From the NCBI GenBank assembly GCA_018394295.1, contig CP074573.1, positions 2,918,543 to 2,982,542 of the forward strand: a stretch of 64,000 bases of DNA, read 5' to 3'. Origin of the DNA: Mycoplasmatota bacterium (GTDB taxonomy: Bacteria > Bacillota_I > Bacilli_A > Haloplasmatales > Haloplasmataceae). A model generated the notes under the pieces. The model was not told where the DNA came from. It worked only from the letters and a program-made list of their open reading frames with translations, and ran no database searches. Shown one piece after another: positions 45,860 to 62,758 of this stretch; position 1 is the first letter of the stretch; the number at the start of each line of letters is the position of its first letter. The translations under genes were made by a program, and so were the position numbers.

Positions 45860-45986
45860 ATAATTAGTAAAATGACCAAAATTTTGTAAAGAAAAGATAA
45901 CATAATCAGAATTATTGAATAATATTTTATATAACTTTACTTTTCATAATATTCTAATGGGATTTTATTTTTTGTCAAGTTACCAT

Positions 45987-46018
45987 AAAAAAAGTTCAGA
46001 AGATCTGAACTTTTTTTG
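45987..46018 (+). terminator. Terminator
   Basis: Stem AAAAAAAGTTCAGA / TCTGAACTTTTTTT with a three-base loop; near perfect. Confidence 0.92.
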
Positions 46019-46028
46019 TGCCAAGATA

Positions 46029-46037
46029 TGATATAAT
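46029..46037 (+). promoter_or_regulatory. Extended -10 promoter for the U32-aminotransferase operon
   Basis: TGATATAAT, immediately after the preceding terminator and 29 bp before the start codon. Confidence 0.6.
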
Positions 46038-46065
46038 ATAATAAGTTTTTGATGGAGGTAAACAA

Positions 46066-48000
46066 ATGGCACGATATTTTAACAACAAACTTGTAGAGTT
46101 ATTAGCTCCTGCTGGAACTTTTGAAATATTTAAAGAAATTATTAAAACCAAATGTGATGCTGTTTATTTTGGTGGTCGAATATTAAATATGAGAATGATA
46201 AGACCAGGTTATAATTTAATTGATAGTGAAGTAATAGAAGCGATAAAGATAGCTCATCAATATGATAAGAAAGCATATGTAACCATTAATAATCTAAATG
46301 GTCAAGAAGATATAGATGCTGCAAAATCATACTTAACCTTTTTAGATAAAGTGGCTAAGCCTGATGCAATTATTGTTCAAGATATGGCAATTATAGAACT
46401 CATAAAGGAAATGAAATTATCGCTAGAAATACATTCATCTGTTATGATGAATGTTCATAATTTAGAAACTGTAAAAGCACTTGATAAAATTGGAGTAAAA
46501 CGTATTGTTGTATCACGAGATTTTTCTTTAAACACTGTACGTTATTTTAAAACAAAAGTACCTCATATGGAATTTGAATACTTTACACATGGAGATATGT
46601 GTACTGTTCATGGGTCTCAATGTTATTATAGTTCATTATTATTTGGTATGAGTAGTAACCGTGGTAGATGTTTAAAACCATGTAGATGGTGGTATCAAGT
46701 TAAAAAAGATGGAAATGTTCATGATCCTAAATTTCCGCTAGCGTCTAAAGATATGTATATGTATGAGCATTTACCTGAGATGATAGAAGCTGGTGTTACC
46801 TCATTTAAGATTGAAGGTCGAATGAGAGAAAAGGATTTTATTGTAAAATTAGTAAATTGGTATGGTGATGCATTAGATAGATATATTAAAGATCCACTTC
46901 ATTTTGATCGTTATCAGGATAAAGAGGAAATGTATAAGATGAGAAAAAGAGATTTATCGACTTGTTATGCATTATCAAAACCTGGTTTAGATAATATTAA
47001 TACGCGATATGAAGGAACAGGAAAATTTTATAGTACCGGTAAAATGTTTTCAAAACCGACTGTTGAAAAAGAGATTAATGAAGTTAAAATTAAAGAAATT
47101 AAAGGTATAATTAATCATTATCCTAAAAAACCTAAGCAATTAAAATTATCTGTAAAAGTTAATAATATAAAGCAAGCATTGTTATGTATTCAGAAAAAAG
47201 TAGATATTATCTACTTATCAGGTAATGTATATCAACCTGATAAACCATGGTGTGTTGATGATATAAACATGATTTGTAAAAATAAAGGAAATTCAAAAAT
47301 ATTATTAGGTACACCTAAAATTTTTGACGAGTTAGATTTCGAAAGGTATCATCATTTATTAAAGTATAATCAATTTAATCTTGATGGAATTAGTGTCACA
47401 AATATTGGTGCTTTATCATTTTTTAAATCATTTGGTTATGATTTATATGGAGATTATGCATTTAATATATATAATGATTTAGCATTAAAATTTTATAATA
47501 AATATGATTTGAAACAGAGTGCTTTATCTATTGAAATGCCTATTAATGATCTATGTGCAACCATTAATAAATCACCCATAAAGACTGAATTAATTGTTCA
47601 TGGGTTAATAGATGTTATGCACCTAGAACACGATTTATATGAGAATACATTAGCTTTTGATATAATAGGTAAGGAAAATAATCTTTATGTTGATAATCAA
47701 ATATTAGTGTTAAAAAATGAGGCAGGAGAATATCCTATTTATAAAGATGATAGAGGTCGTAATCATCTACATAATACAAAAGAAATCAACTTAATTAAAA
47801 TAATGGATAATTTAGCAACAATTGGTTTAGATTGTGTCAGAATTGAAGCACAGACTTATACATTAAATCAGATGGATTGTATTTTAGATGTATATTCAAA
47901 GTATTTAAGTAAAGATATCACAGTAGAAGAAGCGTCAAAACGCTTAAAACCAAATTATTATGGGTACACATTAGGTGCACTCTATCATGAGGTGAAATAA
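46066..48000 (+). CDS. U32-family 'peptidase' with Fe-S cysteine motif
   Basis: 644 residues. N-terminal U32 TIM-barrel-like domain (KLVELLAPAGTFEIFKEII; DAVYFGG; LEIHSSVMMNVHN) followed by four cysteines in HGDMCTVHGSQC ... SNRGRCLKPCRW, the 4Fe-4S motif of U32 proteins such as RlhA and UbiU/UbiV. Those known relatives perform oxygen-independent hydroxylations of rRNA or quinone precursors, so proteolysis is doubtful. A C-terminal extension of about 250 residues has no clear match. GGAGGT precedes the ATG. Stop directly abuts the TTG of the next gene. Confidence 0.85.
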   Translation: MARYFNNKLVELLAPAGTFEIFKEIIKTKCDAVYFGGRILNMRMIRPGYNLIDSEVIEAIKIAHQYDKKAYVTINNLNGQEDIDAAKSYLTFLDKVAKPDAIIVQDMAIIELIKEMKLSLEIHSSVMMNVHNLETVKALDKIGVKRIVVSRDFSLNTVRYFKTKVPHMEFEYFTHGDMCTVHGSQCYYSSLLFGMSSNRGRCLKPCRWWYQVKKDGNVHDPKFPLASKDMYMYEHLPEMIEAGVTSFKIEGRMREKDFIVKLVNWYGDALDRYIKDPLHFDRYQDKEEMYKMRKRDLSTCYALSKPGLDNINTRYEGTGKFYSTGKMFSKPTVEKEINEVKIKEIKGIINHYPKKPKQLKLSVKVNNIKQALLCIQKKVDIIYLSGNVYQPDKPWCVDDINMICKNKGNSKILLGTPKIFDELDFERYHHLLKYNQFNLDGISVTNIGALSFFKSFGYDLYGDYAFNIYNDLALKFYNKYDLKQSALSIEMPINDLCATINKSPIKTELIVHGLIDVMHLEHDLYENTLAFDIIGKENNLYVDNQILVLKNEAGEYPIYKDDRGRNHLHNTKEINLIKIMDNLATIGLDCVRIEAQTYTLNQMDCILDVYSKYLSKDITVEEASKRLKPNYYGYTLGALYHEVK

Positions 48001-49275
48001 TTGGATAATATTGGTGCAAAGAAAATAATTGAAAAGAAAAAGGCTTATTATATGCCATGTTCCTATCATTTTTATCAAAACCCACCACAAATAGTAAAAG
48101 CATTAATGCAGTATTATTATGATGAGAAAAACAATCCTTATCTTGATTTTTTTGGAGGAGTTTCTGTTGCTAATTGTGGTCATTGTAACCCAGAAATAAC
48201 AAAAGTGACAATCGAACAATTACAAACTTTACAACATACAACAACCATTTATTTAACTCAACCAATGTATGATTTAGCTGAAAAATTAGCTGAAGTAATG
48301 CCAGGAGACATTAAGAGAAGTTTCTTTTGTAACTCTGGAAGTGAGGCTAATGAAGGGGCTATGTTATTAGCTCGTCTATACACTCAAAAGAAAGAGTTTA
48401 TCTATCTAGAAGGTGGATTACATGGTAGAACATTTTTAACAACAAATGTAACGGGTATTTCGATGTGGAGAGGTGATCCATTTTTAGATGAAAATAATTT
48501 TCATATGGTAAAAAGACCATGGGATATAAATTTAGACATTGAAGAAGCTGCTAAGATATCACTGCAAGAAATTAGACATTTATTGGAAAGTAGAGGAGAT
48601 AAAATCGCTGGATTTATCGCTGAACCGATTCAAGGTAATGGTGGAATTATTATTCCTCCTAAGTGGTATTTTAAGGAAGTTAAGAAATTATGTAAAAAAT
48701 ATCATGTATTAATGATTGTAGATGAAGTACAAACAGGATTTGCTCGTACAGGTAAAATGTTTGCGATTGAACATTTTGATGTTGTTCCTGATATAATGGT
48801 GGTTGCCAAAGCATTAGGAAATGGGATTCCAATAAGCGCATTTTGTTCAACTGATGAAATAGCTAATGTGTTTACAAAACCTTCAGCATCAACATTAGGA
48901 GGAAATGCTGTGTCATCAAAAACAGCAATTGCAGTACTTGATTATATTGAAAAACATCAATTAATTAGTCATGCTGAAAAAATGGGAAGTATATTAAAAA
49001 ATAAACTAGTAATATTAAAAAAAAAATTCCCACTAATTAAAGAAGTACGAGGGAAAGGATTAATGATTGGGGCTGAGTTAAGAGAAATAGATGGCAGTGA
49101 AGCTAGTGATAAAACAGATATCATTTTAGAAAAAATGAAAGACAGAGGAATTATGATAGGGAAGAATGGTTTTGGTCGAAATGTACTAGCTTTCCAACCC
49201 CCACTGATCATTACAGAAGAAAATATAGAATATCTAATCAGTAGTTTTGAAAGTGTTCTAAAAGAAATAAAGTAA
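48001..49275 (+). CDS. Class-III aminotransferase (AGXT2/GabT-like)
   Basis: 424 residues, PLP-dependent transaminase using omega-amino substrates. Lys for PLP sits in VVAKALGNGIP, the acidic partner in MIVDEVQTGFARTGK and the phosphate site in NSGSEANE. Overall it looks most like alanine-glyoxylate/beta-aminoisobutyrate type enzymes; the exact amino donor cannot be told. The TTG start follows GAGGTGAAATAA with no gap to the U32 stop; thus coupled translation. Confidence 0.88.
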   Translation: MDNIGAKKIIEKKKAYYMPCSYHFYQNPPQIVKALMQYYYDEKNNPYLDFFGGVSVANCGHCNPEITKVTIEQLQTLQHTTTIYLTQPMYDLAEKLAEVMPGDIKRSFFCNSGSEANEGAMLLARLYTQKKEFIYLEGGLHGRTFLTTNVTGISMWRGDPFLDENNFHMVKRPWDINLDIEEAAKISLQEIRHLLESRGDKIAGFIAEPIQGNGGIIIPPKWYFKEVKKLCKKYHVLMIVDEVQTGFARTGKMFAIEHFDVVPDIMVVAKALGNGIPISAFCSTDEIANVFTKPSASTLGGNAVSSKTAIAVLDYIEKHQLISHAEKMGSILKNKLVILKKKFPLIKEVRGKGLMIGAELREIDGSEASDKTDIILEKMKDRGIMIGKNGFGRNVLAFQPPLIITEENIEYLISSFESVLKEIK

Positions 49276-49285
49276 AACTAAAATT

Positions 49286-49322
49286 TAAAAAAACGAATTG
49301 TGTCACAACAATTCGTTTTTAT
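49286..49322 (+). terminator. Terminator
   Basis: Stem AAAAACGAATTGT / ACAATTCGTTTTT with a five- to seven-base loop and T run. Confidence 0.88.
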
Positions 49323-49390
49323 TTATTGTCAAATATTGTAAAAATTTGGAATTTAATGTACAATTAAATTAAAGAAATGAGGAGGGAATT

Positions 49391-50125
49391 ATGAATAAGA
49401 AATTTGTTATTTTAGTTTTATTAATATTATCAATTATAATTGTATGTCCATTACCGTTTGATAATGGAACTTTTTTAGTAGGAGTATTAAATAATCAGGG
49501 ACATATTAATCAACTAGATTATTTGTTTAGATTAATCGGGATGACTTCAGGATTTAATATCATATGTTATGTTCTTATATTAGTAGGAATGATTTTTTAT
49601 TTTAAATGTTATAGTTGTAGTAGTGATTTTGTATTCACTAGTTTTATAGTGATTTATGTAATATTATTAATTACTCAGGCAAAAGGATTTGAATTTCTGA
49701 TGAGATTTAGTTCATCGAATAATTTATCTGAACATGTCATATCAGTTGAAACAATGACTAAAATTTTGTTAATTATCACTTTATTATTAATGACAATCCT
49801 TACTATATTATTTATAAAATTAGTAATGGACAGTTATAGCAGGGATTATCAAACTCCTGTTATTATTTTCACTATATTAGTGTATATTACACAAAGTATT
49901 TTATTTATAGGATCACATGTTTATACTACTAAAATCGCAAATTTAAATATTTCTAATAGATATACATCTAAACCATCACCAATATTTCAAAATTTTCTAA
50001 ATTTTAGCGATGTGATGAGTATCATATCTTTGTTAGTAATTACAACTATGAAGATATTATTTATATTAGTAGTTATAAAAGAAGGTATTTTCATTAAAGA
50101 AGAACATAATACCAATATTGAATAA
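49391..50125 (+). CDS. Multi-pass membrane protein of unknown function
   Basis: 244 residues with about six membrane segments (starting at 5, 52, 77, 123, 157 and 208). The loop between the fifth and sixth helices (ANLNISNRYTSKPSPIFQNF) is polar. No family recognised. GAGGAGGG before the ATG; probably single. Confidence 0.65.
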   Translation: MNKKFVILVLLILSIIIVCPLPFDNGTFLVGVLNNQGHINQLDYLFRLIGMTSGFNIICYVLILVGMIFYFKCYSCSSDFVFTSFIVIYVILLITQAKGFEFLMRFSSSNNLSEHVISVETMTKILLIITLLLMTILTILFIKLVMDSYSRDYQTPVIIFTILVYITQSILFIGSHVYTTKIANLNISNRYTSKPSPIFQNFLNFSDVMSIISLLVITTMKILFILVVIKEGIFIKEEHNTNIE

Positions 50126-50199
50126 AATGCATCATAATATAAAAGGAGGTGTTGGTAAATAAGGTTTATGAACTGAATCTTTACTGATACCTCGTAAAC

Positions 50200-50249
50200 A
50201 AAACTCGTGGATCACTATTTTGTGATTTTCACGAGTTTTTATTTTTTTT
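50200..50249 (+). terminator. Terminator downstream of the membrane protein gene
   Basis: Outer stem AAAACTCGTG / CACGAGTTTT (10 bp), inner ATCAC / GTGAT, then a long T run. Confidence 0.85.
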
Positions 50250-50293
50250 AGAATAATTTTTTAGAAATAAAGAGTACACAAATATAAATTCTT

Positions 50294-50619
50294 TTATACA
50301 AAGTTCTTATCTTTAAATTCAATTAAAGAACCTGACATAAATCGATGATACTTGTTAATATTTCTAGCGAACACATAAAACATTACTTCTTTATATACTG
50401 GTTGATTTATGGTTGAATCTCTTTAAATCATCACTAATTAAATGCCTTACGTCCTCTTTGTTTATACGTACTTAGAAACATAGTAAAATCTAATTCCTTC
50501 ATAACTTCTTTAAGTGTATAATCAGGATCATTTTCTGGTAATCCAATTTCATATAAATTATAATTAAAAAACTGTTACCCTATTTCGAAAAATTGCTTAT
50601 AATAATTATTGGTAATCAT
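50294..50619 (-). pseudogene. Transposase relic (IS1182-like), both ends joined by deletion
   Basis: On the minus strand, from ATG at 50619, broken frames read MITNNYYKQFFEIG, then LKEVMKELDFTMFLSTYKQRGRKAFN, resembling the start of IS1182-type transposases. Further down comes FYVFARNINKYHRFMSGSLIEF ending at 50294, like the C-terminus. The roughly 400 intervening residues are missing. The family call is by eye from short pieces and is uncertain. Confidence 0.5.
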
Positions 50620-50640
50620 AGTTATATTTTAACAAATATA

Positions 50641-50664
50641 ATAGCAACTCCAAGGAGTTGCTAT
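50641..50664. terminator. Bidirectional terminator between the relic and ubiX
   Basis: 11-bp perfect stem ATAGCAACTCC / GGAGTTGCTAT with a two-base loop; serves the minus-strand ubiX operon. Confidence 0.75.
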
Positions 50665-50711
50665 TATTGTTTTTATAGGTCTTTGTTATTTAATTTACCG
50701 ACAGGACTTTT

Positions 50712-51284
50712 TTATATGCCTTCCCAGACTATTTTATCCTCTGTTGAAACATCAAAATAGGATAGTATACGGAAAACAATTTGATTGATGACTTCATCTA
50801 AATCTTTAGGGTGATGATAAAATGCTGGAACTAATGGAAAAATAATAGCACCTGCTTGTTGTAAAGTTAATAAATTATTAAGATGTATAGAAGATAAAGG
50901 TGCTTCACGGAAGGCGATGAGTACTTTTCTTTTTTCTTTTAATTGAACATCACATGCTCTAATCAATAGATGATCACTTGTACCATTCGCAATTTTTCCG
51001 ATAGTTCCCATACTACATGGTAAGATAATCATCCCATCAACTTGAAAGGAACCACTAGCTATTTTATTGAACATATCATTAATTGGGCATAAGTGTAGAT
51101 GTTGATAATTAAGTGACTCAATATATTTTTTAAAGTCATTTTTAATTTCATATTCAAATACTTCTTCACCTGTTTTTGTAGCTACTACATAAATTTCACA
51201 CTTTTCTAGTATCAATATTTCAAGCAATTTTTTAAAGAAAACAGAACCTGTTGCACCTGTTAAACCGATAATAATTTTTTTCAT
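50712..51284 (-). CDS. ubiX: Flavin prenyltransferase UbiX
   Basis: 190 residues. Makes prenylated FMN, the cofactor of UbiD-type decarboxylases. Motifs: GLTGATGSVFFKKLLE for FMN binding, PCSMGTIGKIANGTSDHLLIRACDV, and FREAPLSSIHLNNLL. Last gene of the ubiD-ubiA-ubiX cluster, 15 bp after the prenyltransferase; its product is needed directly by the UbiD encoded two genes upstream. Confidence 0.95.
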   Translation of the reverse strand: MKKIIIGLTGATGSVFFKKLLEILILEKCEIYVVATKTGEEVFEYEIKNDFKKYIESLNYQHLHLCPINDMFNKIASGSFQVDGMIILPCSMGTIGKIANGTSDHLLIRACDVQLKEKRKVLIAFREAPLSSIHLNNLLTLQQAGAIIFPLVPAFYHHPKDLDEVINQIVFRILSYFDVSTEDKIVWEGI

Positions 51285-51299
51285 GTAATCATTCCTTTC

Positions 51300-52226
51300 C
51301 TAGAATAAGAAAATATCAAGGCAAGTAAAAGTAAAAATTGAAATACTAATCAACTGATTAAGTTTATATGAAGCTAATTTCATTAAAATACTATTATGTG
51401 GATTTACGATTTTATGTTCAAATAATAATAATATTGAACTGATAAATATTCCTATAAGATAAATTAATGACAGTTGAGGAACAACAAAGACTAGAGATAG
51501 TAATAGTAAAATCATTAGTAAATGAAATATTTTCGCTATTAGTAGTGCTTTTTCTAATCCGAATTTTGCAGGAATAGAATAAATTTTGTTTTCACGATCA
51601 AAGGTAATATCTTGAGTACCATAAATAGTATCAAAACCAGCATTCCATAATGCTACGGCAACAAATAAAATGATTGGAATAATATTAATATCAACAAAAG
51701 CAATGGGAATTGTTTTTGAATTAAAGGTGATAAAAAAGAGTTCATTTGTTACTGCCATCCATGCACCTAAAACTGCAAAAGCACAAGCGATACCTAGGAA
51801 TAAATGACAATAGGACGTAAAGCGTTTAGTATATGGATATATGGTAAAAAAGAGAATTGGGATTGGGGATAAATAAAAACATATTTCATTTATCTGAGAT
51901 GCTGCATAAAAGTATACTAAATAAGATAATATAGTTACTAAAATAGATTCCATACTTTTTATTTGCCCACTTGAAATATGTCTAGATTCGGTTCGTGGGT
52001 TTTTAGCATCAATTAGTCTATCTGCATAGCGATTAAAAGCATTGGCTCCTGTTCTTGCACCAACTAATGCGATTAAACCATAAATGATGATTTTGATTTC
52101 TGGTAGTCCATTTGCGGCAATAAACATTGTAATTAAGGCAAATGGAAGTGAAAACAAGGTGTGACTGAACATCACCATTTCTCCATATAAATAAATTCTT
52201 TTAGTTATTCTCTTCATTAAAACCAT
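51300..52226 (-). CDS. mqnP: UbiA-family prenyltransferase, menaquinone type (MqnP-like)
   Basis: About 308 residues with eight to nine membrane segments. The two Asp-rich prenyl-PP sites are NAFNRYADRLIDAKNPRT and DTIYGTQDITFDRE. The first site with RxxD and DAKNPRTESR is typical of UbiA/MqnP enzymes of the futalosine menaquinone route. It would join the polyprenyl tail to a naphthoate ring. It starts overlapping the end of the UbiD gene (ATG at 52226, or the ATG three codons on). Confidence 0.88.
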   Translation of the reverse strand: MVLMKRITKRIYLYGEMVMFSHTLFSLPFALITMFIAANGLPEIKIIIYGLIALVGARTGANAFNRYADRLIDAKNPRTESRHISSGQIKSMESILVTILSYLVYFYAASQINEICFYLSPIPILFFTIYPYTKRFTSYCHLFLGIACAFAVLGAWMAVTNELFFITFNSKTIPIAFVDINIIPIILFVAVALWNAGFDTIYGTQDITFDRENKIYSIPAKFGLEKALLIAKIFHLLMILLLLSLVFVVPQLSLIYLIGIFISSILLLFEHKIVNPHNSILMKLASYKLNQLISISIFTFTCLDIFLF

Positions 52227-54066
52227 ATTTTAACCACTTCAAATCTACTTTATTTTTTATATCATCAGTCATAATAATATCATTAGGCCATTGTCTATTT
52301 CCATTTTCACTAGGCAATTTTCTAGTTGCATCGATTGTAACAACTTTAAAAGAAATAGAGTTAATAACAATTTCATTAAAGTATAAATCACGATTAGCAT
52401 CAATATTGTTAAATAATCGCCAAAAACATTGCCAATCTTTATATATATTAGTATATTGATCAAAAATACTAATCCATTTAAACTGTTGTAATTGTGGACT
52501 TTTTCGTAAATAGTTATAAAGTTCTTTTACCTGTTGATCGTTAGATTTATTAATTTGAATCACTAACAATTTAAAATCATCGTTATTTTGGGGTAAGCGG
52601 ATGTCTAGAATAAAATTAAATTGTGTATTTAAAATTTTCAATAACTCTTCTTTTTCTAAGTGTTTGTAAAATAAATATTTTTTTTCATTAGATAAATCAT
52701 ACGAAGATTCTTCGTTAAATTTAGTCGTTGCATCAATTCCCAATCGTGAACCAAAAAAAGCATTTTTTGATGAATGATCTAAGGCATCTAATGGACCTTC
52801 AGTAATCACGATATCTTCATCTAAATTGACTGTATCAATCACAGTCCAGAAGATGTCTTGATAATCTTTTATATTTTTATCAGCATCAACGGTACAAACA
52901 AATTTTTGATACATCATCTGTCCTGTACCCCAAAAAGAATTCATGACTTTATGGGCATGCTTTGGATATTGTTTTTTAATTGATGTAATCGCACAATTGT
53001 GGAAAACACCTTCAAAAGGCAGATGTAAATCAACGATTTCTGGGACAGGCATTTGCATTAATGGTAAGAATATTTCCTCTGTTGCTAGTGCCATATAGCA
53101 ATCTTCCATAGGTGGAATCCCCACAATTGTTGCATGGTAGATGGGATTTCTTTTACGTGTAATTTTTTCAATATGGAAAACAGGATAAAAATCAGGTAAT
53201 GAATAGTAACCAGTATGATCACCAAAAGGTCCCTCTAATCGGGTATCTTCATTAATATCGACATATCCTTCAAAGACAAATTCGCTATTTGCTGGTACAT
53301 ATAAATCATTGGTAATACATTTTACAATAGGGAGAGACCTTCTACGTAGGAAAGATGCAAACATCATTTCATCGACCATTTTTGGTAATGGAGCAGTTGA
53401 AGCATACACTGTAGCTGGGTCTGAACCTACTACGACGCTAACAGGCATCTTACTCATTCCTAACTTGCGATATTTATCATAAATTTCTCTTCCATCTTTG
53501 TGCCAATGCCAATGCATCCCAGTTGTTTTTTTATCGTATACTTGCATACGATACATCCCCATGTTTTGTTGATTTGTTTCAGGATCCTTTGTGATAACAA
53601 GTGGTAAAGTAAAGAATCGTCCACCATCTTCTGGCCAACATTTTATAATGGGAATTTTATCTAAATCAGGTTCTTCAATCACTTCATGACAAGCTGCTTT
53701 TTTCACTTTATGTGGAAAAGAGAAATAAAGTCTTAACAATTTAGGTAATGATTTAATTTGTTTAGGTAGTGTTTTGTAGTTAGATATATCAATAAAATCA
53801 TTGATATCTTTTGCGATGGATTCAAGATTATCTACCTCTAGTGCTAATGACATTCGCTCTAAAGAACCAAAAGCATTGATTAATAATGGATAGGGTGAGT
53901 TTTTAATATGATTAAATAATAATGCTTTGTTTTGCGTGGTTGATTTCATAATTCGATTCGCTATTTCTGTTATTTCTAAATCACGACTCACCTCTTCATT
54001 GATTTCAATGAGTTGATCTAAGGATTGTAATTTTTTCATATATGATTGTAAATCACTATAAGCCAT
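52201..54066 (-). CDS. UbiD-family decarboxylase, menaquinone type (MqnL-like)
   Basis: 621 residues. The prFMN/metal-site region RLEGPFGDHTGYYSLPDFYP (about 282-301) with downstream PPMEDCYM and EIVDLHLPFEGVFHNC matches UbiD/MqnL. The cofactor comes from UbiX encoded in the same operon. Long C-terminal part (about 430-621) is present as in MqnL. Expected reaction: removal of the ring carboxylate on the naphthoquinone precursor. The gene starts a divergent operon from an extended -10 (TGTTATAAT at 54095-54103). Confidence 0.9.
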   Translation of the reverse strand: MAYSDLQSYMKKLQSLDQLIEINEEVSRDLEITEIANRIMKSTTQNKALLFNHIKNSPYPLLINAFGSLERMSLALEVDNLESIAKDINDFIDISNYKTLPKQIKSLPKLLRLYFSFPHKVKKAACHEVIEEPDLDKIPIIKCWPEDGGRFFTLPLVITKDPETNQQNMGMYRMQVYDKKTTGMHWHWHKDGREIYDKYRKLGMSKMPVSVVVGSDPATVYASTAPLPKMVDEMMFASFLRRRSLPIVKCITNDLYVPANSEFVFEGYVDINEDTRLEGPFGDHTGYYSLPDFYPVFHIEKITRKRNPIYHATIVGIPPMEDCYMALATEEIFLPLMQMPVPEIVDLHLPFEGVFHNCAITSIKKQYPKHAHKVMNSFWGTGQMMYQKFVCTVDADKNIKDYQDIFWTVIDTVNLDEDIVITEGPLDALDHSSKNAFFGSRLGIDATTKFNEESSYDLSNEKKYLFYKHLEKEELLKILNTQFNFILDIRLPQNNDDFKLLVIQINKSNDQQVKELYNYLRKSPQLQQFKWISIFDQYTNIYKDWQCFWRLFNNIDANRDLYFNEIVINSISFKVVTIDATRKLPSENGNRQWPNDIIMTDDIKNKVDLKWLKYGFNEENN

Positions 54067-54094
54067 ACTATATTAACCTCCATTTTACTATTTG

Positions 54095-54103
54095 ATTATA
54101 ACA
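54095..54103 (-). promoter_or_regulatory. Extended -10 promoter of the ubiD-mqnP-ubiX operon
   Basis: On the minus strand TGTTATAAT; no clear -35. About 30 bp before the start codon. Confidence 0.55.
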
Positions 54104-54140
54104 TAAATCAAAATTTTATATAAACATTTATCTTCATTTA

Positions 54141-54149
54141 TGATATAAT
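54141..54149 (+). promoter_or_regulatory. Extended -10 promoter of the ABC importer operon
   Basis: TGATATAAT, divergent from the ubiD promoter and only about 40 bp from it, so the two operons could share regulation. Confidence 0.55.
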
Positions 54150-54177
54150 TCATTTGTATTGTAAAGGAGCGAACAGA

Positions 54178-55149
54178 ATGAAAAAACTAATAACATTATT
54201 ATTTTCCATCGCATTATTAGTTGGAATAACAGGATGCAAAAAGGAAAAAACAGAGTCACTACATATAGGGTTAATGAAAAGTTTATTATCTGTACCTTAT
54301 TATTATGCACAAGAACAAGGTATCTTTGAGAAATATGGTGTTGATGTTAAATTAGAACTCTATAATAGTGCTAAAGATAGAGATGCAGCATTTAAAGGAA
54401 ATAAAATAAATGGAGTAAGTACTGATTTAGTCGCAGCGTTATTGTATTTAAATTCAGGTAAAGATATTGTGATTACTTCCCAAACAGAAGAGAAATTCAG
54501 ACTAGTCACAAGAAAAGATTATGGTGTAACATCTGTTGAGGATATTCAAAAAGCAAAAATTGGATTATCTGAAAATACAGTAATTGATTATTTAGTTGAC
54601 TATGTTATGAAAGAAAACAATATTACATTAGTTGAGCAAAATAACATTGATGAAAATAATCAAGATAAGGTTTATGCTAGAATTCCAATTCCAGTTGTAC
54701 CTGATCGTTTTTCCTTATTAAAAGAAGGAAAAATCGATATGGCAATCATTCCAGAACCATTTCCTTCTTTAATGATTGCTGAAGGTGGCGTTGAATTATG
54801 GAATAATATAGATGAAGATTTATATGTTACATGCTTTGTTGTTGATAAGAATTTCGCTGAAAGTAATTATGAAATGATTAAAAACATGAATTTAGCACTA
54901 AATGAAGCTATTAAAGAGATGATGGAAGGAAGTTATGAAGATTACAAACATATTATTACCGATCCTGCCCATGTCTTAATTCCTGAAAAAAGTTTAGGAA
55001 TTGTTGAACAACAAGTTTTTCATCCACTAAAAAATCCAAGCCAAGATACATTTGAGGATGTACTTGCATGGTGTAAAGAAAAAAATATAATCAGCAAAGA
55101 TTATCAATTAAAAGAAATTTTATTCCCGTATCAATTAGAAGATCAATAA
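54178..55149 (+). CDS. NitT/TauT-type ABC substrate-binding lipoprotein
   Basis: 323 residues from the ATG at 54178 (AAAGGAGC upstream). Signal peptide with lipobox GITGC, then the NMT1/THI5-like binding fold: LHIGLMKSLLSVPYYYAQEQGIFEKYGVDVKLE, and the ligand-region DMAIIPEPFPSLM. Relatives bind sulfonates, thiamine precursors or small aromatic acids. As it is divergent from the menaquinone module, I infer that the ligand may be a quinone precursor. Confidence 0.85.
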   Translation: MKKLITLLFSIALLVGITGCKKEKTESLHIGLMKSLLSVPYYYAQEQGIFEKYGVDVKLELYNSAKDRDAAFKGNKINGVSTDLVAALLYLNSGKDIVITSQTEEKFRLVTRKDYGVTSVEDIQKAKIGLSENTVIDYLVDYVMKENNITLVEQNNIDENNQDKVYARIPIPVVPDRFSLLKEGKIDMAIIPEPFPSLMIAEGGVELWNNIDEDLYVTCFVVDKNFAESNYEMIKNMNLALNEAIKEMMEGSYEDYKHIITDPAHVLIPEKSLGIVEQQVFHPLKNPSQDTFEDVLAWCKEKNIISKDYQLKEILFPYQLEDQ

Positions 55150-55156
55150 TAAAATT

Positions 55157-55180
55157 AGCCATCATTGATGGCTTTTTTTT
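55157..55180 (+). terminator. Terminator/attenuator inside the ABC importer operon
   Basis: Stem AGCCATC / GATGGCT with a short loop, followed by eight T residues, placed between the binding-protein gene and the ATPase gene. Likely lets the binding protein be made in excess. Confidence 0.85.
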
Positions 55181-55197
55181 GAAATGAGGTTATAAAA

Positions 55198-55923
55198 ATG
55201 ATAAATATTAATCATTTAACTTATCAGTATTTGGATAATCAACCTGTATTAAGTAATTTAAATCTTAAACTAGCTAGAAATGATAAAATAAGCATTATTG
55301 GTCGATCAGGTTGTGGAAAAACCACTTTATTACTATTATTAGCTGGTTTATTAAAACCAACTGATGGTGAAATTGAAATAGATGGAGAACCTTTACATGA
55401 TGTTAGAAGTAAAACAGGTATCATCTTTCAAACTGGTGGTTTATTCCCTTGGAAGACCGTCTATGGAAATTGTGCATTAGGACTAAAAGCAAGAAATATA
55501 TCAAAAAAACATATAGATTTAAAAATAAATCAAGTATTAGATCAACTTGAAATAAGTCACTTGAAAAATAAATATATTAAGGATCTTAGTGGTGGAGAAA
55601 AACAACGTGCAGCGATTGCTAGAACGCTTGTTTTGGATTCTGATATTTTATTATTTGATGAACCATCTTCTTCTTTAGATGCTTTCACAAAGGAGAATTT
55701 TCAAGATTTATTATTAAATATTTATAAACAGTATGAATTGTGTTCTGTTATTGTCACACATGATATCGAAGAAGCAGTTTATTTGGGTCAAAAAATCATC
55801 GTCATGAAAGATGGACAAATCGTTGAGGAAATTAATAATGATTCATTGTTTGGGGATAAAGACGCTAGAAAATCAATTGCATTTTACGAAAAATGTATAG
55901 AAGTTAGAAAAAGATTGGAGTAA
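55198..55923 (+). CDS. ABC importer ATP-binding protein (SsuB/TauB-like)
   Basis: 241 residues with Walker A GRSGCGKTT, Q-loop GIIFQTGGLFPWKTV, signature LSGGEKQR, Walker B ILLFDEPSSSLD and H-loop VTHD. The Q-loop with FPW is typical for NitT/TauT transporters. One-base overlap with the permease gene. Confidence 0.95.
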   Translation: MININHLTYQYLDNQPVLSNLNLKLARNDKISIIGRSGCGKTTLLLLLAGLLKPTDGEIEIDGEPLHDVRSKTGIIFQTGGLFPWKTVYGNCALGLKARNISKKHIDLKINQVLDQLEISHLKNKYIKDLSGGEKQRAAIARTLVLDSDILLFDEPSSSLDAFTKENFQDLLLNIYKQYELCSVIVTHDIEEAVYLGQKIIVMKDGQIVEEINNDSLFGDKDARKSIAFYEKCIEVRKRLE

Positions 55924-56642
55924 TGCATATGAAAAAAAGTATTGGGTTAATTATTATTATTTTAATTTGGTATTTATTTTCGATTGTTTTCCCTCAACAA
56001 ATTCCTTATCCACAGGATGTTATCATTAATTTTTTTAAAATATTTAAAACGCATTTATTAATACCAACAAAAGAATCAGTAACCCTTTTATTTACTGGAT
56101 TATTACTGTCTATCATAGTAGGTGTTCATATTGGAATATTAATGGGATTATCTAAACGAGCGAATCAAATGCTTGATCCTGTGGTATATGCCATCTATCC
56201 AATTCCTAAATCAACTTTGGTACAAGTACTTATTGTCATCTTTGCTTCAATGTTTTGGATGAAGACAACATTAATATTTATAATTGTTGTATTTCCAGTT
56301 ATTATCACTGTTAAGGATGCGATTAAAAATATTCCTAAAGAAGTTTTTTATCATGCAAAAAGTCTTTCGTTAAATAATAAGGATATGTATAAAGAGATAT
56401 TGATTCCAGCAATTTTACCAAATTTGTTATCAACAACAAGAATAAGTATTGGAACTTCAATTGCTGTATTATATTTAAGTGAGACTCGTGGAATTGGGAG
56501 CGGATTAGGTTATTTTATCGATAATAGTATCCACACAAGTAACTTAAATATGTTTACTGGTATCTTTTTGCTAAGTTTAATTGGTTATGTATTATTTGTA
56601 GTAATTGACATTTTAGAACACAAATTATGTAAATGGATTTAA
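55923..56642 (+). CDS. ABC importer permease (SsuC/TauC-like)
   Basis: 239 residues with about six membrane segments. The EAA-type coupling loop YHAKSLSLNNKDMYKEILIPAILPNLLSTTRI matches the sulfonate/nitrate permease group. ATG at 55923 or the second ATG two codons later. Confidence 0.93.
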   Translation: MHMKKSIGLIIIILIWYLFSIVFPQQIPYPQDVIINFFKIFKTHLLIPTKESVTLLFTGLLLSIIVGVHIGILMGLSKRANQMLDPVVYAIYPIPKSTLVQVLIVIFASMFWMKTTLIFIIVVFPVIITVKDAIKNIPKEVFYHAKSLSLNNKDMYKEILIPAILPNLLSTTRISIGTSIAVLYLSETRGIGSGLGYFIDNSIHTSNLNMFTGIFLLSLIGYVLFVVIDILEHKLCKWI

Positions 56643-56769
56643 TAATGGAATATTTTACAAAATTAATGTATTTAATAATTATATTTAGGAATTTATTCAA
56701 AAAGATTGCATTTTCATACTATTTTAGGTATATATAGAATATCTAGTAATTAAAGACGGGGAGAATAAA

Positions 56770-57486
56770 ATGTTAGAAATTAAAGAGTTAACTAAACGTT
56801 ATGGTGAAAAATTAGCTGTTAATAAAATTAATTTTTCAGTAAAACCAGGTGAAATCTTTGGTTTTTTAGGACCGAATGGTGCCGGAAAGACAACAACTAT
56901 TAAAATGATTGTTGGATTACTAAAACCAGATGAAGGACAAATTCTTATTAATGGGTTTAATAATCAAGTTGACATTTTAGAAGCTAAATATCAATTTTGT
57001 TATGTGCCTGATAATCCAGAAGTATTTGAAAAAATAACTGGATATGATTACTTACAATTTATGTGTGATGTATTTAAAGTACCATTCGAAGAAAGAGAAG
57101 AAAAAATAAACAACTATTTAGAAAAATTAATGTTAAAAGACGATGTAAATGGATTTATTTCTGGATATTCACATGGGATGAAACAAAAAATTGTTATAAT
57201 AGGTGCTTTAATCGCTAATCCGAAAGTTTTGATTTTAGATGAACCAATGGTAGGATTAGATCCAAAAGCGCAACATACTGTTAAAGAATTATTAGCTGAA
57301 CATTGTAGTCGTGGAAACAGTGTGTTTTTCTCAACACATGTTTTAGAAGTTGCAGAAAAAGTGTGTGATAGAGTTGCTATTATTAATAAAGGAGATATCA
57401 TTGCTTTAGGAACATTAGAGGAGATTCGTTCAAAAATAGGAAAAGAAGAATCTCTTGAAAATATCTTCTTGGAGTTGACTGAATAA
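56770..57486 (+). CDS. ABC-2 exporter ATP-binding protein
   Basis: 238 residues; Walker A GPNGAGKTT, signature YSHGMKQK in place of LSGGQ, Walker B VLILDEPMVGLDP. Overlaps the next gene by one base, and with it forms an exporter of unknown substrate. GGGGAGA before the ATG. Confidence 0.92.
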   Translation: MLEIKELTKRYGEKLAVNKINFSVKPGEIFGFLGPNGAGKTTTIKMIVGLLKPDEGQILINGFNNQVDILEAKYQFCYVPDNPEVFEKITGYDYLQFMCDVFKVPFEEREEKINNYLEKLMLKDDVNGFISGYSHGMKQKIVIIGALIANPKVLILDEPMVGLDPKAQHTVKELLAEHCSRGNSVFFSTHVLEVAEKVCDRVAIINKGDIIALGTLEEIRSKIGKEESLENIFLELTE

Positions 57487-59198
57487 TGAAAGAATTTTTA
57501 AACACATTTAATTTTCTTTTAAAACAAAGTTTATCACTATCACACATAATCAACAAAGTAAAGACAGATAAAAAATATCGTAATATGTTAATTTTAGTTA
57601 TTGCTGTTCTTCTTATTTGTATTCCAAGTTATACGGTTTTTATTAGAACATTTATTAAATTATTTGAAACATTTGAACTATTAGGTATTCAATTATTTCT
57701 ATTTATCGTAATGGCCATAATCTTATCCATATTATTCATTCTATTCTTTGGAATGTTTCAAATCATTGCTTATTTTTACTTTTCAAATGATGTTAAAGTA
57801 CTGACTCCTCTACCTATAAAACCAAGTTATTATCTGATCAGTAAATTTTTCGTCATTTATATTTGGGAATTAATCTTTAGTGTATTCCTTGTGTTACCAT
57901 TTTTTATCATCTATGGGATTTACCAACATATTTATATTTATCAATGGGTAACGATGTCGCTTAGTTTTATATTACTACCGATAATTCCCCTTGTAATAGT
58001 GAGTATCCTCACTGTATTACTGATGAGTTTAACCAATGTTTTTAAAAATAGAGATGCCTTAAGAATGGTTGGTTATACGATTTTAGTTCTTGGATTACTT
58101 ACGATTCAAATGTTCATATTTAAAAATATTATCTTTGAAGGTTCACAAGATCCATTAGAGGGTTTAAAAAACTTAGTTGATAATATTTCGAGTTTCTTAG
58201 ACCAGTTTTCTCTATATTATCCTGTAACTAAATTAATTGAATATTCAATACATGGTAATCTTATGCAAGCCATTTTAAGTGTAATTATATATTTAATTAT
58301 ATCGTTAGTCTTTGTTTATCTATTGTCTAAAGTATTACAGGCACTATTTATTAAGAGTTATTTAAAAGAACAAAATAATCCTTCTAGAAAGAAAAAGGTT
58401 AATAGAAAAAGTATTAGTAATAAACAGGGGGATGGGAATGTAGGCTTATCAATCGCTAAAATTGATTTTATAACGCTATTAAAAGTTCCGATTTATGCTT
58501 TTAATTCATTATCGATTATCGTTTTATTACCCTTGTTATATATTATTGCAACAACAGTTATGCAAAGTACAACAGATGCACAACAGTTAAATCGATTTTT
58601 ATCACTTTATAATCAATATAAAAATGAATTTTGGTTAGCAGTTACTTTGTTTTTAATTGTCTCAAGTGCATTAATGCCTATTTCATCAACAACATTTTCT
58701 CGTGAAGGGAAAACAAATTGGATTATGCGAACTCTACCAATAAAACCAAGGGATCATATCCTAGGTAGAGTTTATACACCATTTTTTACTCAATTGGTTT
58801 TCAATGTAGTGATGACTGTTTTGTTAATCATTACATTGGTTCAAAGAGGTAGCTCTGTTTTAGAAAATATTGGGTTTGGATTAGTTGTAATATTATTATC
58901 ATTAATAGCTGGTTTACCATTACTATTAATGGGCGTTTATATTGATTTAAAAAGACCAATGTTAAAATGGGATAATCCGCAACAGCCTGTGAAACAAAAT
59001 ATGAATGTAATAATTTCAATGGGTCTTGGAATCGGTTATGGTACTTTGTTATATATTTTATATCAGTTTGTATTTAGCTTATTCCTACCTAGTTATATGA
59101 TGTTTATTGTATTATTGATAATTGGACTTGTGCTAACTTATATAACTTATCGAATACTTGAAAAACAATTTAATAAGAGTCTTGTTGTCATGGACTAA
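57486..59198 (+). CDS. Large ABC-2 permease with internal duplication
   Basis: 570 residues with about 12 membrane segments in two halves. VLTPLPIKPSYYLISKF (about 102-118) and MRTLPIKPRDHILGR (about 416-430) are the same coupling motif repeated, so one polypeptide carries both half-permeases usually supplied as two. A cytoplasmic linker rich in Lys/Arg/Asn (about 298-318) joins them. Substrate unknown. Confidence 0.85.
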   Translation: MKEFLNTFNFLLKQSLSLSHIINKVKTDKKYRNMLILVIAVLLICIPSYTVFIRTFIKLFETFELLGIQLFLFIVMAIILSILFILFFGMFQIIAYFYFSNDVKVLTPLPIKPSYYLISKFFVIYIWELIFSVFLVLPFFIIYGIYQHIYIYQWVTMSLSFILLPIIPLVIVSILTVLLMSLTNVFKNRDALRMVGYTILVLGLLTIQMFIFKNIIFEGSQDPLEGLKNLVDNISSFLDQFSLYYPVTKLIEYSIHGNLMQAILSVIIYLIISLVFVYLLSKVLQALFIKSYLKEQNNPSRKKKVNRKSISNKQGDGNVGLSIAKIDFITLLKVPIYAFNSLSIIVLLPLLYIIATTVMQSTTDAQQLNRFLSLYNQYKNEFWLAVTLFLIVSSALMPISSTTFSREGKTNWIMRTLPIKPRDHILGRVYTPFFTQLVFNVVMTVLLIITLVQRGSSVLENIGFGLVVILLSLIAGLPLLLMGVYIDLKRPMLKWDNPQQPVKQNMNVIISMGLGIGYGTLLYILYQFVFSLFLPSYMMFIVLLIIGLVLTYITYRILEKQFNKSLVVMD

Positions 59199-59202
59199 TT
59201 TA

Positions 59203-59235
59203 AAAAGAAACGATAGTTGCTTATCGTTTCTTTTA
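59203..59235 (+). terminator. Terminator
   Basis: 13-bp stem AAAAGAAACGATA / TATCGTTTCTTTT with a six-base loop. Confidence 0.92.
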
Positions 59236-59398
59236 GATTTTTAAGATTTTATAAATTTTATGAATTTAAGAAGGTACGAAAGTATAAATATTATTTCACT
59301 ATTACTATCAAATAAACAAATTTAGTTAAAAACTAAACAATAATTTAATGTAGAAATTCTTAGAAACGCAATATATGAAAACTAAAACTTTAAATATC

Positions 59399-59426
59399 TT
59401 TACATATATCTATATAAGTGTATAAT
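59399..59426 (+). promoter_or_regulatory. Promoter of the leucyl aminopeptidase gene
   Basis: TTTACA, 16-bp spacer, TATAAT. Confidence 0.65.
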
Positions 59427-59444
59427 ATAGTAGAGGTGATGAAT

Positions 59445-60866
59445 TTGAAAGAATATATTAGTAATTTAAAATTAGAAACTGAAACAAAGGCAATTGTAAT
59501 GGGGATTCATGATGAAAATCAAAATAGAATAATTGAACCCATTATTAATAATTTAAGTGAAAGAAAAGAAATATACCGTTTTGGAGAAATAACAGTTTTT
59601 TATCCAATTGATCAATTTAAAACAAAGAAGTTCATTTTTATTGGTTTAGGTAAAAAAGAAAAGTATTATCTTCAAGATATTCAAAGCTTGTTTTCTAAAA
59701 TTGCGAAAGCAATTGATTGTGATACAGTAATTGATATAGATTCTTTTCAATGTTTAGAAAGTAATATTCATTTATTATGTGAAAAAGCAGTAGAAACGAT
59801 TGATTTAGTCAATTATCGTTTTAATGACTATAAAACTAATAATGTTAAGGAAGAAAGTTTTGAGATTAGCATTTATAGTAAAGAGGACGTATCTCAAGCG
59901 ATTTTAACAGGTAGTATTTATGCTAGAGGGACAAATAGTGCTAGAAACCTTGTAAATGAACCAAGAAATAAAATGACGCCTTCAATTTTAGCAGATTATG
60001 CGAAAGATTTAGCAAAAGAACATAACTTATCATGTGATATTTATAATAAAAAAGAGATTGAAGCATTAGGTATGGGTGCTTTCTTAGCTGTAAATCAGGG
60101 ATCTAAAGAAGAAGCAAAGTTAATTCATTTAAAATATCGTAATGCAGAAAATGATCCTGTAACTGCCTTGATAGGTAAAGGACTTACTTATGATTCTGGT
60201 GGTTATTCTCTTAAACCTAAAAACGGAATGGCTGGAATGAAATCAGATATGGGGGGTGCTGCCTCTGTATTAGGAGCAATTGAGATTATTGCCCGTAAAC
60301 AAATGAAAGTCAATGTTGATGTAATTATTGCAGCCACAGAAAATCTGATCAATAGTGAAGCAATTGTTCCAGATGATGTTATTGTAACAATGAATGGTAA
60401 AACAATAGAAGTATTAAATACAGATGCTGAAGGAAGACTAACACTAGTAGATGCAGTAACATATGCAAAAGAAAATAATGCAAGTAAAATTATTGATGTA
60501 GCAACCTTAACAGGTGGAGTAGTAACAGCACTTGGAACAGATATTACAGGTGCATTTACAAACAATAATGACTTACTCAGTGAAATAAAAGAGACATCTG
60601 TTAAAGCAGGAGAGGCAATTTGGCAATTACCAGTTGATGCATTTAGAGAAAAATGTAAAAAAAGTGATGTAGCAGATTATAATAACTCGCCTGGACGTGA
60701 AGGACACGCTTCATTTGGTGCTGCTATTATCGCAGAATTTGCTGAGGAGACACCTTGGGTGCATTTAGATATCGCAGGGACTTGTACTAAAAAAGCTTCT
60801 CATTTGTTAGGACCATCTGGTGCTACAGGAGTAATCGTTAGAACATTAGCGAAAATATTTGAATAA
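59445..60866 (+). CDS. pepA: Leucyl aminopeptidase (M17 family)
   Basis: About 473 residues. Dinuclear zinc site: GKGLTYDSGGYSLKP, MKSDMGGAA, and the family signature NTDAEGRLTLVDA. TTG at 59445 is preferred because GAGGTG lies six bases upstream; an ATG two codons earlier overlaps that site. Releases N-terminal residues in protein turnover. Followed by a terminator and then a group II intron. Confidence 0.92.
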   Translation: MKEYISNLKLETETKAIVMGIHDENQNRIIEPIINNLSERKEIYRFGEITVFYPIDQFKTKKFIFIGLGKKEKYYLQDIQSLFSKIAKAIDCDTVIDIDSFQCLESNIHLLCEKAVETIDLVNYRFNDYKTNNVKEESFEISIYSKEDVSQAILTGSIYARGTNSARNLVNEPRNKMTPSILADYAKDLAKEHNLSCDIYNKKEIEALGMGAFLAVNQGSKEEAKLIHLKYRNAENDPVTALIGKGLTYDSGGYSLKPKNGMAGMKSDMGGAASVLGAIEIIARKQMKVNVDVIIAATENLINSEAIVPDDVIVTMNGKTIEVLNTDAEGRLTLVDAVTYAKENNASKIIDVATLTGGVVTALGTDITGAFTNNNDLLSEIKETSVKAGEAIWQLPVDAFREKCKKSDVADYNNSPGREGHASFGAAIIAEFAEETPWVHLDIAGTCTKKASHLLGPSGATGVIVRTLAKIFE

Positions 60867-60899: not shown

Positions 60900-62758
60900 G
60901 TGTGCCAGGCATGTCTATTAACTAGGTGGTGAAAGTCCACTACACGGGAAGATGACTAAAGTGTTAGCCAAGTACAAGGGCGCCTATTGGGAAGTAGGGT
61001 CTGAAGGAAGTAGGAGGCAAAATTTTGGCTCGAGGAACACGAATCACATCAGGCGGGTATTATGGATGAGTTTGCTTAACAAAACAAAGTCCGTAGTCAT
61101 CAAAGCAATAATACACGTAAATGTGGCGAGTATATGAAATGAAAGTGAATAGACTTACCCTGGGAGATCTCATGGACACGTCACGAGCGTGGTTGAAAAA
61201 GATTTATCGTGAGAAGTCAGCAGAGCCATAGTAGGGTCCAAACCGAAGGGCGAAACAGTATGTTTAATTGTAAATGTAAATTATAAGACTATATGAACAG
61301 TAGAAAATCAGGATTACCTACCTAACTTCGATGGTATCGTAAGGAACCTAGGAGCCTTTAGGACAAACAGTATGGTCTTAACAATGAAAGGAGCAATTAC
61401 TAATGGAAAATCTTCTAGAATTAATCTTAAGTAACTGCAATTTAAATGAAGCCATCGCTAGAGTAGTGAAGAATAAAGGTGCTGCTGGAATTGATGGGAT
61501 GAATGTTGAACAAGGAAGATTACATTTTATGAAACATGGTGATGAAATTAAAAGAGCCATAAGAAATAGAAAGTATAAACCTAACCCCGTTAGGAGAGTA
61601 GAAATACCAAAACCTGATGGTGGGGTAAGACTACTAGGAATACCAACGGTTATAGATAGAATCATTCAACAAGCCATTAATCAAGTGCTATCACCAATAT
61701 TTGAGAAACAATTTAGTGACTCTAGTTTTGGATTTAGACCAAATCGAGGTTGTCATATGGCAATTGAGAGAAGTTTAATGTATTTAAATGATGGTTACAA
61801 AGTAATAGTTGATACGGATTTAGAGAAATTCTTTGATAAGGTTAACCATGATAAACTCATGCAAATATTATCTTTAACAATTAAAGATAGTGATTTAATG
61901 AGTTTGATAAGGAAATATCTAGTTAGTGGTATCATGATAAATGGAGTCGTAATAGATAGTGAGGAAGGAACACCACAAGGAGGACCATTAAGTCCATTAT
62001 TATCAAATATCATGCTTAATGAACTAGATAAAGAGTTAACTAAAAGAGGATTAAGATTTGTACGATATGCCGATGACTGTAATATATATGTAAAAAGTAT
62101 ACGTGCAGGACAAAGAGTAATGGAGAGTATAACTAACTTTATTGAAAAGAAGTTAAAACTCAAAGTTAATCAGAGTAAAAGCAAAGTAGATTACTATAAT
62201 AAAGGAATCAAATTTTTAGGCTTTGGCTTTTACTACAATCCCAGGCACAGACAAGTTAGAATCAAAGTACATCCAAAATCAATTAAAAGAATAAAAGAAA
62301 AGATTAAGAAATTAACATCTAGAAGATGGAGTATCAGTTTAGATTATCGGTTACTCAAAATAAAACAACTTATAACAGGTTGGGTTAATTATTATAAAGT
62401 AGCCGATATGAAATGGTTATTGATGAAATTAGATGAACAAATAAGATTTCGTGTAAGAATGTGTATTTGGAAAGCATGGAAAAGGATTGGGAAACGATTT
62501 AAATCCCTAAAGAAACTAGGTGCAAGTCGTCAAAAGGCTTGGGAATACGCAAACAGTAGAAAAAGCTATGCGCGAATCGCACATAGCTTTATCTTAACAA
62601 CTACGATTACAAATAAAAGATTAGAACATCGTGGTCTAATATCAATGACCGAATATTATTTATCTGTTAGATAACATATTGAACCGCCGTATACCGAACG
62701 GTACGTACGGTGGTGTGAGAGGTCTGAAATGAATAGAAAACTATTTATTTCTTCCTAC
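60900..62758 (+). mobile_element. Group II intron
   Basis: 5' end GTGTGCCAGGCATG fits GUGYG; ends with a domain V hairpin (about 62683-62718: ACCGCCGTA, CCGAACGG, TACGGTGGT, triad CGC instead of AGC) and a domain VI (GAAATGAATAG / CTATTTATTTC) up to about TAC at 62758. An intron-encoded reverse transcriptase is inside. It lies just after an intrinsic terminator, like group IIC introns; the exact class is uncertain. Size about 1.86 kb. Confidence 0.9.
61403..62674 (+). CDS. ltrA: Group II intron reverse transcriptase/maturase
   Basis: 423 residues. RT domains: VRRVEIPKPDGGVRLLGIP, FGFRPNRGCHMAIE, GTPQGGPLSPLLSNI and the catalytic RYADDC (Tyr222-Ala-Asp-Asp). The C-terminal third is a maturase (X) domain with a group II maturase-like ending KRLEHRGLISMTEYYL. 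No HNH endonuclease domain, which fits introns that insert at replication forks or terminators. AAAGGAG before the ATG. Frame intact, so the intron may still be active. Confidence 0.95.
   Translation: MENLLELILSNCNLNEAIARVVKNKGAAGIDGMNVEQGRLHFMKHGDEIKRAIRNRKYKPNPVRRVEIPKPDGGVRLLGIPTVIDRIIQQAINQVLSPIFEKQFSDSSFGFRPNRGCHMAIERSLMYLNDGYKVIVDTDLEKFFDKVNHDKLMQILSLTIKDSDLMSLIRKYLVSGIMINGVVIDSEEGTPQGGPLSPLLSNIMLNELDKELTKRGLRFVRYADDCNIYVKSIRAGQRVMESITNFIEKKLKLKVNQSKSKVDYYNKGIKFLGFGFYYNPRHRQVRIKVHPKSIKRIKEKIKKLTSRRWSISLDYRLLKIKQLITGWVNYYKVADMKWLLMKLDEQIRFRVRMCIWKAWKRIGKRFKSLKKLGASRQKAWEYANSRKSYARIAHSFILTTTITNKRLEHRGLISMTEYYLSVR

Follow-up and report, generated by a model that had tools for sequence, protein, structure and literature searches.

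The stretch of DNA analysed here, referred to as the window, comprises 64,000 nucleotides of a Haloplasma genome (contig CP074573.1; 3.29 Mb in 2 contigs, completeness 98.75%). Between positions 50712 and 56642 it contains six genes, all intact open reading frames (ORFs), which combine the late enzymes of quinone synthesis with a transporter (Table 1). Three of them lie on the minus strand, where mqnL is transcribed first, followed by mqnP and mqnM; they code for a UbiD-type decarboxylase, a UbiA-type prenyltransferase and a UbiX-type flavin prenyltransferase. The other three, divergent on the plus strand, form a complete NitT/TauT-type ATP-binding cassette (ABC) importer, consisting of a substrate-binding lipoprotein (SBP), an ATPase and a permease. 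An earlier reading made from the letters alone (the sequence-only reading) had described this divergent arrangement, and both the gene families and the intact ORFs agree with it. It had further proposed that the importer brings in a naphthoate-type precursor, which the three enzymes finish to menaquinone.

MqnL is 53% identical to the homologous protein from a futalosine operon that also encodes MqnE and MqnC, and it is the only UbiD of the host genome. It is composed of a core (residues 1-450) and a C-terminal extension that represents a partial second UbiD_C-like repeat, PF20696 matching two stretches. Proteins of about this length are also encoded in Turicibacter-like and some Clostridium genomes; the homologues in Enterococcus and C. 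gasigenes are shorter. MqnP reaches 252 bits with the MqnP_DT model versus 118 bits with that of proteobacterial UbiA (TIGR01474, UbiA_proteo), and lies below the 430-bit MqnP "exception" cut-off. Prenylated flavin mononucleotide (FMN), the product of UbiX/MqnM, serves UbiD. For residue comparison, we took two sets of MqnL, 47 from SBP-free loci in genomes that have PF02621 (the family of MqnA and MqnD) and 30 that are SBP-linked, and used the alignment columns conserved to at least 90% in each set. The two sets carry an identical residue at 146 of 147 such columns in MqnL and at 53 of 54 in MqnP; MenA-type DmkA agrees at only 10 of 57. Because the conserved residues of both proteins match those of futalosine-pathway enzymes, their substrate is, judging from these alignments, probably the same as in that pathway, 1,4-dihydroxy-6-naphthoate.

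The earlier steps were sought in the host genome by family-profile searches. PF02621 gave no match. The model of MqnE, by which MqnC is recognised too (a true MqnC scores 396 bits), found nothing above 16.2 bits. The claim that none of mqnA-D is present here is thus true for the window and for the whole genome; a complete set of mqnA-D at another site of the genome, the first of two joint observations that the sequence-only reading named as speaking against it, was looked for and not found. Nor was a MenA-type enzyme found in the host genome, its only UbiA above cut-off being the MqnP-type protein (menB-F were not searched individually). None of 19 genomes contains a MenG/UbiE methyltransferase above the TIGR01934 cut-off (best score 79 bits versus 158), and demethylmenaquinone is therefore a likelier end product than menaquinone. 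A divergent methyltransferase acting instead of MenG/UbiE is possible.

Within a set of 149 genomes (host and relatives), MqnL exceeds the cut-off in eight, host included, and PF02621 exceeds its cut-off in none of these eight; a single sub-threshold PF02621 match was seen in genome G050. The MqnL of a genome of the same genus, Haloplasma contractile isolate B5_bin.1, is 81% identical. Sixteen named mqnL records come from Haloplasmataceae, Clostridium celatum, C. cuniculi, C. gasigenes, Faecalimicrobium dakarense, four Enterococcus, a Turicibacter metagenome-assembled genome (MAG), a Streptococcaceae MAG and others. Among these 16 genomes, Faecalimicrobium has a borderline PF02621 match (26.5 bits) and the rest have none, and the same SBP family adjoins mqnL in most of the 16 gene maps. 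ATPase and permease genes follow that of the SBP in Clostridium, Faecalimicrobium, Enterococcus canis, Haloplasmataceae and two genomes of one contig each from family f11 (termed Turicibacter-like because that family includes the Turicibacter MAG contig). The host permease is 79% identical to a protein adjoining mqnL in another locus (L033). The importer genes diverge from the mqn genes in Haloplasmataceae; in Clostridium, Faecalimicrobium and Turicibacter-like genomes, they run in line with mqnL-P-M. Neighbourhood conservation, suggested as a check by the sequence-only reading, thus bears it out: the linkage of importer and mqnLPM is kept across several bacterial families, in genomes that mostly lack MqnA/D.

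The relation between importer and upstream genes was counted in a phylum sample around Clostridium gasigenes, where MqnL exceeds the cut-off in 106 of 398 genomes; 80 neighbourhoods and their genomes were taken for the contrast. An SBP adjoins mqnL in 19 of the 80 loci, 15 of them in genomes without PF02621 above 21 bits. The other 61 have no SBP and mostly possess PF02621, the typical order being mqnL-mqnP-mqnE-(PF02621)-mqnC (L131). Of all 97 loci of the MqnL tree, 37 have an SBP of this family next to mqnL; they come from Haloplasmataceae, Turicibacter-like genomes, Clostridium, Faecalimicrobium, Enterococcus and the Streptococcaceae MAG. PF02621 is absent in 33 of these 37 and in 13 of the 60 unlinked loci (present in 4 and 47, respectively; one genome with a weak 44-bit match was scored as lacking it), which gives a Fisher p of 4e-11; restricted to the Clostridia sample, p is 7e-6. 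In the tree, 30 of the 37 SBP-linked MqnL fall into one clade of 33 rows (SH-aLRT 96). This clade spans several bacterial families, which suggests horizontal spread. Six further loci (L145, L147, L161, L171, L173 and L187), in genomes without a strong PF02621 match, have no detected mqnP between mqnL and the gene for MqnM or prenyl synthase; in L145 an SdhE/HdrB-like gene lies upstream of mqnL.

The SBP gene is listed from a TTG codon at 54154. An ATG at 54178 is preceded by a good Shine-Dalgarno sequence (aaaggagcg) and yields a lipoprotein signal ending in the lipobox GITGC, and for these reasons the gene probably extends from 54178 to 55149. Alignment of 17 SBPs revealed an AKDRDA-like region and invariant R76, D77, S139, T142 and R185 (residues counted from the TTG). 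The predicted model (pLDDT 88.3) has SsuA, Thi5, TauA and PqqT, a binder of pyrroloquinoline quinone (PQQ), as its fold neighbours; the modelled fold would fit a small anionic or aromatic ligand, without naming one. The host protein thus shares fold and family with the NMT1/SsuA/TauA/ThiY/PqqT SBPs, and differs from them in the invariant residues of its own subfamily, in its position beside mqnL and in sequence, with at most 18% identity to the listed fold matches.

The arrangement recurs in several groups of bacteria from the gut and the environment. As most of them are without the early steps, they probably obtain the half-made quinone ring from their neighbours and complete it themselves. 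We therefore consider it likely that the locus is a salvage module for a futalosine-branch quinone precursor, equipped with its own importer. Soluble 1,4-dihydroxy-6-naphthoate, or a compound very close to it, would be set free by nearby bacteria that possess the futalosine pathway and be taken up by the importer. MqnP would then prenylate the imported naphthoate, and MqnL, using prenylated FMN from MqnM, would strip its carboxylate to give demethylmenaquinone. In many such organisms, the quinone may connect an Ndh2-type NADH dehydrogenase, as electron source, with flavin-based extracellular electron transfer (FLEET). From the earlier proposal, the salvage itself is strengthened by the lack of MqnA/D and MqnE/C and by the conserved linkage, and menaquinone as its product is weakened by the lack of MenG/UbiE above cut-off.

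The link to electron transfer comes from gene neighbourhoods. In three Clostridium loci (L036-L038), the module lies near genes for Ndh2 with a DoxX-like C-terminus, heptaprenyl diphosphate synthase, ApbE, a NusG_II protein of EetA type and a Hpre_diP_synt_I protein of EetB type; a weakly FMN_bind-like protein was also identified there on L036 and L038. Ndh2 or EetA/EetB, taken as FLEET markers, lie next to 10 of 36 SBP-linked loci versus none of 60 others, the ten being clustered by descent, and an Ndh2 homologue is encoded in all 19 genomes tested. The FLEET-like locus of Haloplasma (L091 3723-10459; G000:C1 about 2867700-2874500, within about 2867000-2875000) is situated about 100 kb from the module. 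It comprises genes for ApbE, heptaprenyl diphosphate synthase, Ndh2 with a DoxX-like C-terminus and an FMN_bind-like protein (31 bits by phmmer, unrecognised by Pfam); no EetA or EetB was identified in it. The FLEET loci away from mqnL (L091-L100) contain no matching SBP, and the importer therefore follows mqnL/P and not the flavin machinery. In Enterococcus asini, a MenA/DmkA-type prenyltransferase is encoded in the FLEET locus (L094 5111-6067) and an MqnL/MqnP pair with SBP elsewhere (L042 9998-12302), so that two salvage routes possibly exist there side by side.

The three enzymes and the importer, presented by the sequence-only reading as the module, are indeed linked, and the set proves too narrow: besides the FLEET genes, often found with it, it has recurrent partners in a two-barrel U32-family protein and a class-III aminotransferase. 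The U32 gene is found near mqnL in Haloplasma, Clostridium, Faecalimicrobium and Enterococcus, and within the operon in L191; the aminotransferase gene adjoins it in Haloplasma, Clostridium, Enterococcus and L191. The U32 protein, which is related to TrhP and UbiU/UbiV, scores 172 bits with the TrhP model (cut-off 534) and 130 bits with that of UbiU (cut-off 440). Its N-terminal barrel has invariant cysteines 179, 186, 202 and 206 in all 11 homologues, in the spacing C-x6-C-x15-C-x3-C, which is that of TrhP-like U32 proteins rather than of UbiU; the second barrel was detected by hhalign (98%). A UbiU-UbiV fusion was considered and rejected, as the four-cysteine motif occurs in the first barrel only, its spacing is TrhP-like, and neither cut-off is passed. 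A protein of family PF21758 (bacterial proteasome-assembly-chaperone-like) recurs at Clostridium and f11 loci; proteins of this type presumably chaperone prenylated FMN.

Several points weigh against the salvage module. The ligand is deduced from gene context, and other members of the SBP fold family bind sulfonates, pyrimidines, nitrate or PQQ; the environmental release of 1,4-dihydroxy-6-naphthoate is presumed. At some loci, for example in three Enterococcus, no ATPase or permease adjoins the SBP, which also stands alone in one f11 genome and in the Streptococcaceae MAG. Four SBP-linked Clostridia (G444, G529, G668 and G602) encode an mqnE-PF02621-mqnC cluster, assigned by 59-64% identity of MqnE/MqnC to L131, and 13 SBP-free loci likewise lack PF02621. 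The rule is thus not absolute in either direction, and its exact form, importer equals no upstream pathway, was rejected because of the four exceptions. As most SBP-linked MqnL belong to one clade, the association rests on few independent events: a tree-aware pair test is not significant (1.9 agreeing, 0 opposite, 4.1 uninformative pairs), and the Fisher p was for this reason not accepted as independent evidence. Finally, simple salvage leaves the U32 and aminotransferase partners unexplained. The SBPs of the four Clostridia (L197, L202, L207 and L195, respectively) score lower with the family profile, at 214-234 bits.

A wider proposal, which we put forward tentatively and at somewhat less than even confidence, would include these partners. 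The SBPs might represent a dedicated ABC importer family for futalosine-branch precursors, spread horizontally among Haloplasma, Turicibacter-like bacteria, Clostridium and Enterococcus, by which fermenters that have no upstream route could turn 1,4-dihydroxy-6-naphthoate from a neighbour into demethylmenaquinone for use in extracellular electron transfer, with the U32 protein and aminotransferase carrying out an additional reaction on the ring or on its precursor.

It seems unlikely that the importer carries another cargo, such as riboflavin/FMN, a thiamine pyrimidine or a sulfonate, while the ring is made internally by an unrecognised upstream route. Such ligands are known for NMT1-family SBPs, with Thi5, SsuA and TauA as the nearest model folds, and the 13 SBP-free loci without PF02621 leave room for such a route in some genomes. 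The importer tracks mqnL/P even so, no matching SBP occurring at the examined FLEET loci that lie apart from mqnL, and MqnA/D is missing from 33 of the 37 SBP-linked genomes. An Rfam scan of 44000-60000 found no riboswitch of any family, and a thiamine or flavin role indicated by a riboswitch was dropped. We regard it as quite improbable that the product is a different prenylated quinone, for which another hydroxyarenecarboxylate (e.g. 4-hydroxybenzoate) would be imported, prenylated and decarboxylated by the UbiA/UbiD/UbiX enzymes, and hydroxylated on the ring by the U32 protein without oxygen. UbiU and UbiV perform such oxygen-independent hydroxylation in ubiquinone synthesis; the N-terminal U32 barrel is related to UbiU and keeps four cysteines, and the U32 gene recurs with its aminotransferase neighbour beside the module and once inside its operon. 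Its product nevertheless scores higher as TrhP than as UbiU, many importer loci have no U32 gene nearby, the enzymes reach much higher scores with Mqn models than with Ubi models, and MqnL and MqnP retain nearly all residues conserved in enzymes of genomes with MqnA/D. That a generic NitT/TauT importer came to stand beside late quinone genes in Haloplasma by mere chance is scarcely credible, common as such importers are and unreliable as their annotated specificity is, since SBPs of one family are found next to mqnL in more than a third of the tree loci, in several families, often in one operon and in varied gene orders.

The proposed salvage of a futalosine-branch precursor can be compared with three known systems. 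With the futalosine pathway (PMC4746308) it has the last three enzymes in common, as judged by family models and, in the case of MqnL and MqnP, also by conserved residues; it differs in having an importer in place of MqnA/D and MqnC/E. According to Ravcheev and Thiele (2016), mqnPLM was confined to genomes possessing the Mqn pathway (PMC4746308). Like bacteria that possess only MenA/DmkA and salvage 1,4-dihydroxy-2-naphthoate (DHNA), e.g. Lactiplantibacillus plantarum, which uses external DHNA for extracellular electron transfer (PMC10746273), the host would be an auxotroph completing an external naphthoate, with electron export by FLEET; it differs in the futalosine-type ring (carboxylate at C6), in MqnP and MqnL instead of MenA, and in a dedicated candidate ABC importer. 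The FLEET locus of Listeria and lactic acid bacteria consists of genes for Ndh2, DmkA, DmkB, EetA, EetB, PplA and FmnA/B (PMC9888254). Its counterparts for Ndh2, prenyl synthase, EetA, EetB, ApbE and FMN_bind proteins adjoin the module in Clostridium L036 and others, where MqnP/L/M take the place of DmkA, whereas in Haloplasma the FLEET-like genes are distant. Exchange of Men-route precursors has been proposed (PMC4746308), and transporters of quinone precursors were stated to be undescribed or in need of prediction (PMC4746308; Fenn et al. 2017); according to Fenn et al. (2017), no transporter of menaquinone or DHNA had yet been described. Our literature search found no description of an importer-mqnLPM module. 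Bacteria of the gut have been proposed, and in part shown, to cross-feed quinone precursors. The locus supplies one candidate importer family, adds a futalosine-route counterpart to salvage by the DHNA/MenA route and ties salvage to extracellular electron transfer. Its occurrence in named species (Clostridium celatum, Clostridium gasigenes, Enterococcus asini) makes the question directly testable.

Table 1. Features of the mqnLPM-importer locus in the window and U32-aminotransferase gene pairs
Feature	Position	Strand	Remarks
mqnL-type UbiD decarboxylase	52201..54066	-	621 aa; TIGR03701 615.8 bits (equivalog cut-off 495.9)
mqnP-type UbiA prenyltransferase	51300..52226	-	TIGR01475 275.5 bits, above cut-off
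mqnM/UbiX flavin prenyltransferase	50712..51284	-	TIGR00421 187.9 bits (cut-off 108.9)
NMT1/SsuA-type SBP	54178..55149	+	PF13379/PF09084
NitT/TauT-type ABC ATPase	55198..55923	+	PRK11248 taurine ATPase family 195 bits, under equivalog cut-off
ABC permease (BPD)	55923..56642	+	PF00528 66.7 bits
Divergent promoter region	54067..54177		candidate -10 TATAAT 54144-54149 (+) and 54100-54095 (-); consensus matches only
Candidate terminator after mqnM	50638..50667		13-pair hairpin and T-run
Terminator-like hairpin	55157..55173	+	between SBP and ATPase genes
Two-barrel U32-family protein	46066..48000	+	PF01136 262 bits; recurrent module partner
Class-III aminotransferase	48001..49275	+	PF00202 343 bits; recurrent partner of U32 gene
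U32-aminotransferase pair, window	46066-49275
U32-aminotransferase pair, L036	5010-8224
U32-aminotransferase pair, L042	13376-16640
U32-aminotransferase pair, L191	2932-6303

Promoters about 40 bp apart had been noted between the divergent genes. Candidate sigma-70-like -10 sites do occur on both strands, about 45 bp apart, the number of sites across the whole region being no higher than in shuffles. The hairpin that follows the SBP gene is a possible attenuator giving excess SBP. An EetB-like gene at 63276 is not claimed as member of a FLEET locus in the window, its neighbours being housekeeping genes. Directly after the importer (56770-59198) lie genes for an ABC ATPase and an exporter-like membrane protein of 570 amino acids, which are kept in other Haloplasmataceae loci (L033-L035). 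Further downstream, at 61403-62674, a 423-amino-acid reverse-transcriptase ORF is, by sequence, of group II intron type, and a similar protein of L036 has RVT_1 and GIIM domains.

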